A DNA stretch of 64,000 bases from Kaistella yonginensis (GTDB lineage: Bacteria; Bacteroidota; Bacteroidia; Flavobacteriales; Weeksellaceae). Each line of letters begins with the position of its first letter. Within the stretch, counting starts at the first letter, position 1. Positions 21,414-25,417 of the stretch are shown piece by piece. The stretch covers positions 124,001 through 188,000 of the forward strand of contig NZ_JAUFQB010000010.1 of the NCBI RefSeq assembly GCF_030409525.1, written 5' to 3'. The translations under genes and the position numbers were made by a program. The notes under the pieces were generated by a model that saw only the letters and a list, made by a program, of their open reading frames with translations, searched no databases and was not told the DNA's origin.

Positions 21414-22904
21414 TTAAATGGTTGAATGACTCATCATGTTTGCATCGATGTTAATCTGCAAGCCCATCGCTATCTTCATTCCTAATTCAATATTCGCTCG
21501 AAAGAAATGACACAACTGTCGATTGATGATTTCATCTCTCTTTGGTCCGGCAATACCTTTCATTGAACTTATAATATTATTAACCAAATTTTGTCGATCG
21601 TGATCGTTCATCGCTTTGGTGTACAGTAACCCCGGCTGTGTATAATGATCATCATCATTTTCATTTCGGTTAAAGTGTGAAACGTGAGTACTGTCTAAAT
21701 CTTCTTCGAAATTTTTAAAGTCAGATATCGGTTTTATTTCATCGAAACTGTTGGGGTAATAGTTCGGTGCATCTTTGTATTGGCTCGAATCTGCCATGGC
21801 ACCATCTCTTTGATAATTATTCACCACAAAAGGACAACGGTTAACTTCTAATAAATGGGAGTTTGCGCCAACTCTGTAGCGGTGCGCATCGGCATAGGAG
21901 AATAGTCGACCTTGTAACATTTTATCTGGTGAAAAACTGATGCCATTAACTAGGTTGCTCGGTGAAAAAGTAGATTGCTCCACATGGGCAAAATAATTGA
22001 CCGGAATTTCATTAAGCTCCATTTCGCCAACTTCAATTAAAGGGAATTCATCGTGAAACCAGACTTTAGTTACATCAAAAGGATTCCATCGAAATTCCTT
22101 GGCTTGTTCGTCGGTCATTACTTGAATGTAAAGCGTCCATTTTGGGAAGTCGCCAGCTTCAATCGCATTCATTAAATCTTCTTGTGCGAAATCAGGATTT
22201 TCTCCCTTCAATTTTACCGCTTCATCTTGATTGAAGTTTTTGATTGATTGTTTTGTCTTAAAGTGAAACTTAACCCAAACTCTTTCATTGGCTGCATTGA
22301 TCATTGAAAACGTGTGTGATCCAAATCCGTGCATATGGCGATAACCATGCGGTGTTCCCCGATCAGACATTAATATTAAAACTTGGTGCAGCGATTCTGG
22401 ATTAAAACTCCAGAAATCCCACATCATCGTGGCGCTTTTAAGATTGGTTTTTGGGAGCCGCTTTTGGGTATGAATAAAGTCTGGGAATTTTTTAGCGTCT
22501 TTAATGAAAAAAACGGGCGTGTTATTGCCCACCAAATCCCAATTTCCCTCTTCTGTATAAAATTTTACCGCAAACCCGCGGGGATCTCTTTCGGTATCAG
22601 CGCTTCCTTTTTCCCCGCCAACAGTAGAGAATCGAGTAAAAATTTTGCAGCTATTTCCTACGGTTGAAAATAACTTTGCTTTGGTGTAATTTGAAATATC
22701 ATGGGTAACAGTAAAAGTTCCGTATGCACCAGTTCCTTTTGCGTGCACCACTCTTTCAGGGATCCTTTCTCGTACGAAATGAGCTAAATTTTCCTGTAAG
22801 ATGAAATCTTGCAATAAAACCGGCCCTCTTGGTCCTGCGGTCTGCGAATCTTCATGCTCATAATAGGGAATTCCAGCGGAGTTGGTTAATTTGTTGTTGC
22901 TCAT
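21414..22904 (-). CDS. katA: Catalase, haem-type monofunctional
   Basis: Breaks down hydrogen peroxide. About 496 residues, matching clade 3 small-subunit catalases. The catalytic His is in RVVHAKGTGAYG, the distal Asn in DLVGNNTPVFFIKD, and the proximal haem Tyr in RLFSYADAHRYRVGAN. It has no signal peptide, so it is cytoplasmic. I chose the ATG at 22904 (MSNNKLTNSAG), which matches the N-terminus of the family; the longer frame from 22928 adds residues of no obvious relevance. It is divergent from an OxyR gene, whose product is the expected peroxide-responsive activator; the shared intergenic region is 90 bases. Confidence 0.95.
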   Translation of the reverse strand: MSNNKLTNSAGIPYYEHEDSQTAGPRGPVLLQDFILQENLAHFVRERIPERVVHAKGTGAYGTFTVTHDISNYTKAKLFSTVGNSCKIFTRFSTVGGEKGSADTERDPRGFAVKFYTEEGNWDLVGNNTPVFFIKDAKKFPDFIHTQKRLPKTNLKSATMMWDFWSFNPESLHQVLILMSDRGTPHGYRHMHGFGSHTFSMINAANERVWVKFHFKTKQSIKNFNQDEAVKLKGENPDFAQEDLMNAIEAGDFPKWTLYIQVMTDEQAKEFRWNPFDVTKVWFHDEFPLIEVGEMELNEIPVNYFAHVEQSTFSPSNLVNGISFSPDKMLQGRLFSYADAHRYRVGANSHLLEVNRCPFVVNNYQRDGAMADSSQYKDAPNYYPNSFDEIKPISDFKNFEEDLDSTHVSHFNRNENDDDHYTQPGLLYTKAMNDHDRQNLVNNIISSMKGIAGPKRDEIINRQLCHFFRANIELGMKIAMGLQINIDANMMSHSTI

Positions 22905-22925
22905 AATAATGAATTTAATAAACCT

Positions 22926-22960
22926 CAAATTTATTTAAAAATAATTACATTTCGGCAAAA
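22926..22960 (-). promoter_or_regulatory. Catalase promoter
   Basis: On the minus strand, TTTTG (22960-22956) and TAAATTTG (22933-22926) are separated by about 22 bases, matching the Bacteroidota -33/-7 pattern. The ATG at 22904 is 21 bases downstream. Confidence 0.65.
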
Positions 22961-22981
22961 TCTAAGTATATTTGACCTAGA
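22961..22981. promoter_or_regulatory. Candidate OxyR operator, overlapping the oxyR -7 element
   Basis: The block begins TCTA and ends TAGA with partial dyad symmetry over 21 bases, and contains the oxyR -7 element TATATTTG (22967-22974). It sits just upstream of the catalase -33. An operator here could both activate katA and repress oxyR. The match to the known OxyR pattern is only partial. Confidence 0.4.
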
Positions 22982-22994
22982 CTAAATTACCCTA

Positions 22995-23948
22995 ATGAAT
23001 ATTCAACAACTAGAATATCTTATCGCAGTAGATAAATATAAACACTTTGGCAATGCGGCGCAAGCTTGTTTTATTACGCAGCCTACCTTGAGTGCCATGA
23101 TCCAGAAATTTGAGGATGAAATGGATGTAAAGATTTTTGATAGAACGACCCATCCCATACGCACCACCGATGTCGGAATGCAACTGGTCGTAGAAGCAAA
23201 GAAAGTAATCGATGCGATTAATGAGTTACGGAGCAAAGCAAATTTACTCAATAATGTTTTGGCAGGAAAACTGAATTTGGGGATTATTCCCACCGTCTCG
23301 GGTTTTATACTACCAACAGAAATTTTCGATTTTCTAAAAAACCATCCTAAGATTGAGCTGAGCGTTAAAGAAATGACCACGGATAATATCATCAAAGCTT
23401 TAAAAAGTGGTGAACTTGATGCGGGAATTATTTCTACTCCTTATACTGCAGCCAATGAATTCTACCACGACTTTTTGTTTAATGAAGAATTGATGCTTTA
23501 TGCAGCCGACGATAGCACCTCGGAAAAGAAAGACAGTTTTGTAGTTCCTGAAGATATTGATGTGCAGAAAGTTTGGCTTTTGGAGGAAGGTAATTGCCTG
23601 AGAACCCAATTTGAAAATATTTGCGAACTAAAGGAAAATACGGTAAAGCCAAAAAATCTAGATTTTGTCGCGTCAAATATCAATACCTTGGTTCAGTTGG
23701 TTGATAAATTAGGAGGAATCAGTATTTTACCTGAGCTCGCTGTAGAACAGTTAACCGATGAGCAGCGGCAAAAAGTAAAGCGTTTTAGAGCGCCATTTCC
23801 GTATCGTGAGATTTCGGTCATTTATTATAAGCCGACTTATAAGCAGAAGATTTTAGATGAATTAATTGCCTTTATTTCTGAGTCATTGAATACCAAGCTA
23901 AATTTTAACAAAAACCCAGAAGAATTTGTGGGCATTAAACCACAATGA
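22995..23948 (+). CDS. oxyR: OxyR, LysR-type peroxide sensor
   Basis: 317-residue LysR-type regulator. The winged-helix HTH is at residues 1-60 (AAQACFITQPTLSAMIQKFE). The effector domain carries Cys201 and Cys210 in a GNCLRTQFENIC context, the same nine-residue spacing as the disulphide-forming Cys199/Cys208 of E. coli OxyR. This distinguishes it from generic LysR proteins. It should activate the divergent catalase gene when oxidised. A -7 element TATATTTG at 22967-22974 precedes its ATG by 20 bases. It is a single-gene unit followed by the metK promoter. Confidence 0.92.
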   Translation: MNIQQLEYLIAVDKYKHFGNAAQACFITQPTLSAMIQKFEDEMDVKIFDRTTHPIRTTDVGMQLVVEAKKVIDAINELRSKANLLNNVLAGKLNLGIIPTVSGFILPTEIFDFLKNHPKIELSVKEMTTDNIIKALKSGELDAGIISTPYTAANEFYHDFLFNEELMLYAADDSTSEKKDSFVVPEDIDVQKVWLLEEGNCLRTQFENICELKENTVKPKNLDFVASNINTLVQLVDKLGGISILPELAVEQLTDEQRQKVKRFRAPFPYREISVIYYKPTYKQKILDELIAFISESLNTKLNFNKNPEEFVGIKPQ

Positions 23949-23967
23949 TTTTTAACATCTAAATAAA

Positions 23968-23999
23968 TTTTGCAATTTCATAAATAGTGGCTAAATTTG
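23968..23999 (+). promoter_or_regulatory. metK promoter, near-perfect Bacteroidota type
   Basis: TTTTG (23968-23972) and TAAATTTG (23992-23999) are separated by exactly 19 bases, the consensus spacing. The predicted transcription start near 24005 is a few bases ahead of the riboswitch-like leader. Confidence 0.8.
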
Positions 24000-24012
24000 C
24001 ACCAATAATTTA

Positions 24013-24094
24013 CCAGAGGAAAAATTTGTACTGATTGCAACCTCATTAAAAAATGCTAAAACCGATTTTTCTCTTTTAGTTTCTGTTGCAATCA
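24013..24094 (+). promoter_or_regulatory. Probable SAM-II-class riboswitch in the metK leader
   Basis: The leader has the SAM-II elements in order: a short P1 stem GAGG (24016-24019) with CCTC (24041-24044); loop blocks ATTTG (24024-24028) and ATTGCA (24034-24039); and, after P1, TTAAA (24046-24050) and GCTAAA (24055-24060), the diagnostic pseudoknot tail. The competing fold is striking: TGATTGCAAC (24032-24041) pairs perfectly with GTTGCAATCA (24085-24094), and inside it CTAAAA (24056-24061) pairs with TTTTAG (24074-24079). That helix uses both conserved aptamer segments, so it looks like an anti-aptamer switch. P1 is only 4 bp, which lowers confidence in the class. The metK ATG is 42 bases downstream. 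Confidence 0.65.
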
Positions 24095-24136
24095 CCCAAT
24101 TTTCTTCTATTTTTTTAATTAAAAACAAATAGAAAT

Positions 24137-25417
24137 ATGTCTTATTTATTTACCTCTGAATCGGTATCCGAAGGACACCCAGATAAAGTGGCTGATCAAA
24201 TATCTGATGCCTTAATCGATAATTTCCTGGCGCATGATCCGGCCTCAAAAGTTGCATGTGAAACATTAGTGACCACAGGTCAAGTTGTTTTGGCTGGTGA
24301 AGTGAAGTCAACAGCCTATCTTGATGTGCAGGATATCGCGAGAAAAGTAATCAATGGAATTGGGTATACCAAAGGCGAATATATGTTTGCAGGCGACTCT
24401 TGTGGTGTTATTTCTGCGATTCATGAACAATCTTCAGATATCAACCAGGGTGTTGATCGAAGCGTTGAGAATGATGATTTTGAAACCAAAGCAAACAGCC
24501 AAGGGGCAGGTGATCAGGGAATGATGTTTGGTTACGCAACCAACGAAACAGATAACTATATGCCATTGGCCCTAGATCTAGCCCATACCATTCTTAAAGA
24601 ATTGGCGATCCTAAGAAGAGAAAATAACGCGATTACCTACCTTCGCCCTGATGCTAAATCGCAGGTAACTATTGAATATTCTGATGACCATAAACCCGTA
24701 AGAATTGATTCTATCGTGGTTTCTACACAACACGACGAATTTGGAAGTGATGAAGCGATGTCTGCAAAAATCAGAAAAGATATCATCGGAATATTGATCC
24801 CAAAAGTAAAAGCAAAACAAAAAAAAGAAATTCAAGATCTTTTTAATGATCAGATTACTTACCATGTAAATCCTACCGGAAAATTTGTTATCGGAGGGCC
24901 ACATGGCGATACGGGCTTAACCGGACGAAAAATTATCGTAGATACTTATGGTGGGAAAGGAGCACACGGCGGTGGTGCATTCTCCGGTAAAGATCCATCA
25001 AAAGTAGATAGAAGTGCTGCTTATGCAGTGCGTCACATGGCCAAAAACCTGGTAGCAGCTGGTGTTGCTGAGGAAATTCTGGTTCAGGTTTCATACGCAA
25101 TTGGTGTTGCAGAACCTTGTGGTTTATATGTTAATACTTATGGAACTTCAAAATTGGGGTTACATGATGGAGAAATTGCCGAAAGAATCCAGAAGATATT
25201 TGATCTGAGACCTTACGCCATCGAACAAAATTTAAAATTAAGAAACCCTATTTATCAGGAAACTGCTTCTTACGGGCACATGGGAAGAGCACATTATGTT
25301 GCTGATAAAACTTTCCGCGGTGCCAATGGTGTTGAGTTTACCATTAAAGATTTAGAATTTTTTACATGGGAGAAACTCGACAAAGTAGACGAGATAAAGA
25401 AAGAATTTAATCTTTAA
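24137..25417 (+). CDS. metK: S-adenosylmethionine synthetase
   Basis: Makes SAM from methionine and ATP in the cytosol. The signature motifs are [14 protein letters not shown] near the N-terminus, the ATP-binding [12 protein letters not shown], and the phosphate-binding loop [19 protein letters not shown]. The length of 426 residues is greater than E. coli MetK because of inserted segments such as [17 protein letters not shown], as is normal in Bacteroidota. It is a monocistronic unit with its own promoter, a structured SAM-riboswitch-like leader and a terminator, so feedback by its product is likely. Confidence 0.97.

Follow-up and report, generated by a model that had tools for sequence, protein, structure and literature searches.

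A putative SAM-II long-loop riboswitch with a competing antisense fold in the metK leader of Kaistella yonginensis

The window analyzed here is a 64,000 nt stretch of the Kaistella yonginensis genome, within which the leader of metK, the gene for S-adenosylmethionine synthetase, was followed up (Table 1). Just upstream of metK, at 21414-23948, a minus-strand gene adjoins a plus-strand regulator gene; from their translations we take these to be catalase-like and LysR-type (OxyR-like), respectively. The promoter noted in a first-pass annotation of the window was confirmed and is of the Bacteroidota type, for which a consensus of TAnnTTTG at -12 to -5 has been described (PMC9723704). Transcription would be expected to start near 24004. 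A TTG-N16-24-TAnnTTTG element lies within 70 nt 5' of the aptamer in 33 of 36 leaders of the genus and in 111 of 148 leaders overall. The SAM-II blocks that had been reported, ATTTG (24024-24028), ATTGCA (24034-24039), TTAAA (24046-24050) and GCTAAA (24055-24060), are all present, as are both helices of the second fold described with them.

Table 1. Features of the metK leader, in coordinates of the window
Feature	Position	Strand	Elements	Basis or remark
Bacteroidota-type promoter	23970..23999	+	TTG 23970-23972, 19-nt spacer, TAAATTTG 23992-23999	sequence match
SAM-II long-loop aptamer (RF01726)	24010..24069	+		60.6 bits
P1	24016..24044	+	GAGG 24016-24019 with CCTC 24041-24044	4 standard pairs; the model's fifth pair is mismatched
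P2b pseudoknot strands	24031..24064	+	CTG 24031-24033 with CCG 24062-24064	middle pair U-C in the window
Outer helix HA	24015..24108	+	AGAGGAAAA 24015-24023 with TTTTCTTCT 24100-24108	duplex prediction; also breaks P1
Anti-aptamer helix HB	24032..24094	+	TGATTGCAAC 24032-24041 with GTTGCAATCA 24085-24094	exact reverse complements in the window
Inner helix HC	24056..24079	+	CTAAAA 24056-24061 with TTTTAG 24074-24079	36/36 genus members, never varies
Start-site helix	24080..24135	+	TTTCTGTT 24080-24087 with AATAGAAA 24128-24135, directly 5' of AUG	8 pairs, one G-U
Local hairpin	24105..24134	+	TTCTATTT 24105-24112 with AAATAGAA 24127-24134	forms in ligand-free RNA that includes coding sequence up to 24160
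metK, S-adenosylmethionine synthetase, 426 aa	24137..25417	+		ORF; MetK relatives by tblastn

The leader had been described as SAM-II-like, and an Rfam scan of the window assigned it to the SAM-II long-loop family, RF01726 (E 3.6e-9, gathering cut-off 44 bits). This was the sole riboswitch match within the window and the only RF01726 match in the genome. Comparison with SAM models had been proposed as a check; the SAM_alpha model RF00521 scored 14.2 bits against its cut-off of 36, and RF01726 was well above its own. The position of the aptamer 5' of a SAM synthesis gene and the presence of P1 agree with the latter family. The possibility of a distinct SAM class, raised in the first-pass annotation, was rejected because RF01726 aligns over its full model length and is already listed for Bacteroidetes. 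A match to U4 snRNA (14.2 bits, gathering 46) was attributed to chance. By covariance-model score, the metK leader is a new member of the known SAM-II long-loop family, accompanied by a real and conserved competing fold.

A flavobacterial SAM-II aptamer before metK had been thought unusual, a view that did not hold. RF01726 is found above its cut-off in all 36 genomes of the genus, in 185 of 197 of the family and in 70 of 109 of the order, and the metK start codon lies downstream of the aptamer in all 135 family loci fetched (extraction required it; none failed). SAM-II long loops were presented as a confident riboswitch in Bacteroidetes in 2010 (Weinberg et al. 2010, PMC2864571), and SAM-II in Bacteroidetes was already remarked upon in 2007 (PMC2258182). 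Together with the genome counts, these papers make a metK SAM-II aptamer the normal state in flavobacteria. One genus of the family, g17 (L275-L283), differs in that none of its nine genomes carries RF01726. An Rfam scan at E 0.05 of seven loci, five or six of them from g17, gave no match in the g17 metK loci; one microRNA match in a non-g17 locus was dismissed as chance. The g17 metK leaders also seem short in that a promoter-like sequence, TAAATTTG or one resembling it, lies near the AUG, and the riboswitch may therefore have been lost there.

The P1 helix has four of the five model pairs in standard form, and these are intact and without variation in the alignment of all 36 genus members. 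Outside the genus, leaders L181 and L199 have no GAGG/CCTC P1. The P2b pseudoknot is known from SAM-II structures and is absent from the RF01726 model itself. At least three contiguous P2b pairs can be formed in 133 of 148 leaders; the window has two of three. Within the genus the middle pair is standard in 25 of 36 members and broken in the other 11, the window included, with U-C substituting for U-A; in these the usual CAG tail is replaced by CCG (ten members) or ACG (one). The broken pair could be read as the mark of a relic aptamer that has lost SAM binding in this species. We regard this as very improbable, given that the same P2b state is common to ten species that group together on the metK tree (4 changes, against a mean of 8.9 after shuffling) and in which the remaining aptamer blocks are all intact, and that two of the variants also carry T for C on the 5', loop side and thereby regain four pairs once the register is moved by one position. 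A single origin of the CCG tail was considered as well and rejected, as the metK tree requires 4 changes, of which the starred branches force 2, and the carriers do not form one clean clade.

The competing fold proved to be longer than the first-pass annotation had recognized, with strands downstream of the aptamer that are antisense to its 5' half and to CUAAAA. All energies given here are nearest-neighbour predictions at 30 C with pseudoknots excluded. In the ligand-free fold of the window, UGAUUGCAAC pairs with GUUGCAAUCA, CUAAAA with UUUUAG, and AGAGGAAAA with UUUUCUUCU, forming a long rod whose helices leave neither P1 nor the loop nor the GCUAAA block free. The aptamer and the second fold are mutually exclusive because both use the same aptamer segments, as had been claimed. 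For the 155-nt leader as a whole the predicted folding energy is -29.5 kcal/mol (z -5.10; 0/200 shuffles as low). Pairing between the aptamer and its spacer reaches -25.5 kcal/mol in the window, compared with a shuffled mean of -13.0, and 0 of 300 spacer shuffles paired as well. The same shuffles were applied to 145 of the 148 leaders, L091 (which contains Ns) and two duplicates being dropped, and the genus-mean z was negative in 23 of 23 family genera.

Within the genus the anti-aptamer pairing is strongly maintained. The 10-bp helix HB of the first-pass annotation is exact in the window, but its tenth pair, C24041-G24085, is standard there only (1/36 members). The pair 24032-24094 is kept in 30 of 36 members and the eight core pairs between these two are jointly kept in 35, as are the six pairs of HC in all 36. 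Single pairs of HA occur in 19 to 35 of 36 members, in a region where the alignment is uncertain. When the partner strand was slid by 1-3 columns in the genus alignment, anti-aptamer pairing fell from 92.7% to 22-46%. No two-sided changes in HB or HC were found among the 36 members; the aptamer side is invariant in the genus, which accounts for this and makes pair-count shuffles uninformative. One genus member, L054, has lost the GYAAUC anti-aptamer strand (6/8 core pairs) and has kept the start-site helix. The aptamer end of L054 was set too early in the promoter and pseudoknot counts, in the shuffle, opening-cost, tree and overlap tests and possibly in some draws of the swap test described below; it is correct in the genus alignment, where the P2b of this leader is intact.

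Evidence for coupled change comes from comparisons between genera. In a swap test with one representative for each of 23 genera, the antisense strand paired with its own aptamer 2.35 kcal/mol better than the additive expectation, with a permutation p of 0.0005 (the floor) in each of 20 draws, for a statistic that ignores phylogeny. The segment of the aptamer that is targeted differs by genus, being, for instance, mainly the GGAAGGAUUU stretch in g28 and AUUGCAA in some others. Covariation had been named as a check for P1 and the conserved blocks, where there is none within the genus because they barely vary; it was found instead in the downstream strand, with the aptamer between genera and with the start site within the genus.

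At the level of the order the picture is mixed. An aptamer-antisense strand was detected at p < 0.05 in 10 of 24 loci (mean z -1.50) and was not significant in the other 14, in a test for which 25 loci were tried, L242 could not be parsed and three g21 loci were left out. Because of these 14 loci, we do not claim an antisense platform for the order as a whole. Four loci from other families of the order, L243, L247, L252 and L253, have strong antisense strands directed at different aptamer segments, e.g. GCCAAAUCU against AGAUUUGGC.

We consider it likely that a SAM-II long-loop riboswitch in this leader controls metK, with translation from the SAM-free form and repression at translation initiation when SAM is bound. 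In the proposed mechanism the aptamer would be transcribed first and then fold. SAM bound at this early stage would preserve P1 and the pseudoknot and block strand invasion. Without SAM, the downstream strand complementary to the aptamer's 5' half would invade and form the rod (HA, HB and HC), destroying P1 and the SAM binding site and leaving the start site open for translation. If the aptamer were held, the freed strand would pair with the bases directly before the metK AUG and translation would fall. The outcome would be negative feedback on SAM synthesis, and plentiful SAM probably leads to less of the enzyme that makes it. The computations establish the family membership of the aptamer, the antisense strand with its conservation, the mutual exclusion that follows from overlap and, for most genus members, the start-site helix; we infer SAM binding, the sign of the response, control of translation rather than of transcription, and a decision during transcription.

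Predicted folding of the growing transcript agrees with this order of events except at one point. P1 has a probability of 0.99 in transcripts ending at 24044-24069, is present again in those ending at 24084-24089, and has disappeared by 24094, where the antisense strand is complete. Its transient loss at 24074, where the probability drops to 0.06, speaks against the scheme. HA reaches a pairing probability of 0.95 once the transcript extends to 24109. The ligand-free rod of the window lies 21.9 kcal/mol below the held aptamer, a figure that does not count ligand or pseudoknot energy, and across the genus the gap is 7.7-21.2 kcal/mol in a shorter construct. Given the 21.9 kcal/mol advantage of the free rod, switching at equilibrium is unlikely and a kinetic decision would be needed.

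The same rod, 24015-24108, might alternatively act as a terminator when SAM is absent, in which case SAM would raise metK transcription. In the window it is directly followed by A and seven U (24109-24116), and 13 of the 36 genus members have six or more T among the eight bases that follow the rod. Such a U-tract is missing in the remaining 23, internal loops interrupt the A-U-rich outer helix, and a terminator scan of 23940-24300 (loops 3-8 only) found none in the leader and two sites at 24270-24282, inside metK. A SAM synthetase activated by SAM would also amount to positive feedback. Control of this kind seems quite improbable to us, and repression at translation initiation is retained as the preferred reading.

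To our knowledge, Bacteroidota do not use Shine-Dalgarno pairing. In Flavobacterium, initiation has been described as independent of such pairing and as adjusted by RNA structure around the start codon (PMC6847099), which fits the masking of the start site proposed here. The strand of the start-site helix sits just 5' of the HB strand and overlaps it, sharing 24085-24087 in the window. The full set of nine pairs of this helix can form in 27 of the 36 genus members, and 32 can form eight or more. In the genus alignment 95.7% of its cells are paired and four are changed on both sides, compared with 56-71% pairing for slid versions. Its covariation score is 0.066 vs 0.035, and none of 500 shuffles equalled the helix in pairing or in covariation. 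When the aptamer is kept folded, opening the start region is predicted to cost a mean of 6.54 kcal/mol more over the 36 genus members, and 1.97 more with shuffled spacers. In 31 of 36 members, the masking strand also has three or more bases in common with the strand that the free fold pairs to the aptamer. Across the 23 genera, the swap test for the start-site helix gave a coupling of -1.61 kcal/mol in favor of own pairs (p 0.0005-0.0010, 20 draws). Start-site pairing does not extend to the whole family: in 7 of 23 genera the mean z of this helix lies above zero. In the opening-cost test, which covered 98 leaders (all 36 of the genus and at most 6 per other group), g10, g22 and g28 had little or no switching effect.

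The window itself is a weak example of this output step. Its start-site helix has a predicted energy of -9.3 kcal/mol vs -7.4 for shuffled sequences (p 0.15), and its opening difference is 2.74 kcal/mol vs 1.36, with 6 of 40 shuffles as high. A local hairpin, which shares 24105-24108 with HA, masks the start region in the ligand-free fold with a probability of 0.89 when coding sequence to 24160 is included, so that SAM may not be needed for the start site to be covered. In RNA ending at the AUG (24139) the hairpin has a probability of 0.20 and the outer rod helix 0.85. CCUCU at 24152-24156, inside the start of the metK coding region, can pair with the P1 strand AGAGG and shifts the predicted ligand-free fold. 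That the local hairpin has taken over from the repressing strand in relatives of the window was suspected by eye and dropped, since 19 of the 36 members, inside and outside that group, have perfect local arms of 7 nt or more.

These observations bear on a further explanation, in which the aptamer binds SAM and represses translation, the antisense strand merely tunes the binding threshold, and start-site pairing in this species is incidental to a U-rich leader and an A-rich start region. The weak start-site results in the window are as it would predict, and the frequency of perfect local arms is in keeping with how easily U-rich and A-rich strands yield them. Against it stand the genus-wide covariation and shuffle results, and we judge it unlikely. 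Mutually exclusive helices, one of them over the start region, characterize the genus as a group and are weakly evident in the window alone. Masking of the start site by the freed strand remains our preferred account of the output step.

Several described systems resemble the leader in part. Like the SAM-II long loops of Bacteroidetes (PMC2864571), it is a full-length match above gathering and presumably cis-regulatory before metK, from which it differs by the broken middle pair of P2b. With the alpha-proteobacterial SAM-II type (RF00521; PMC1273637, PMC9373788) it shares the conserved blocks and the H-type pseudoknot plan. The platforms described for that type either hold the Shine-Dalgarno sequence in the pseudoknot or use an intrinsic terminator (PMC9373788), whereas this leader makes no use of a Shine-Dalgarno sequence, contains no terminator that we found and falls below the RF00521 cut-off. 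It is also similar to antisequestor/sequestor platforms (PMC2258182), in which the bound ligand breaks up an antisequestor pairing and thereby allows a sequestor hairpin to form. Here, however, the sequestor would mask an A-rich start region rather than a Shine-Dalgarno sequence, and the part of the antisequestor falls to a strand complementary to the aptamer. Among the open-access article texts that we searched, RF01726 is named in two papers and no account of an antisense expression platform was found; PMC2864571 refers its details to its Additional File 1.

We tentatively propose, with slightly less than even confidence, a platform common to the family in which the strand antisense to the aptamer also serves to mask a start site that lacks a Shine-Dalgarno sequence, and the outcome is decided during transcription. 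The aptamer would be fixed and the platform rewired, with targets and covarying masks that differ by genus and a mask that can lie 5' or 3' of the anti-aptamer segment. Within this family there is nothing unusual about the aptamer, and it is the platform that could matter. How riboswitches of Bacteroidota control translation without Shine-Dalgarno pairing is a question of practical interest, for which the 135 metK leaders offer a set of exact, mutually exclusive helices for mutation. They may also provide a case of a fixed sensor whose output part has been rewired between genera.
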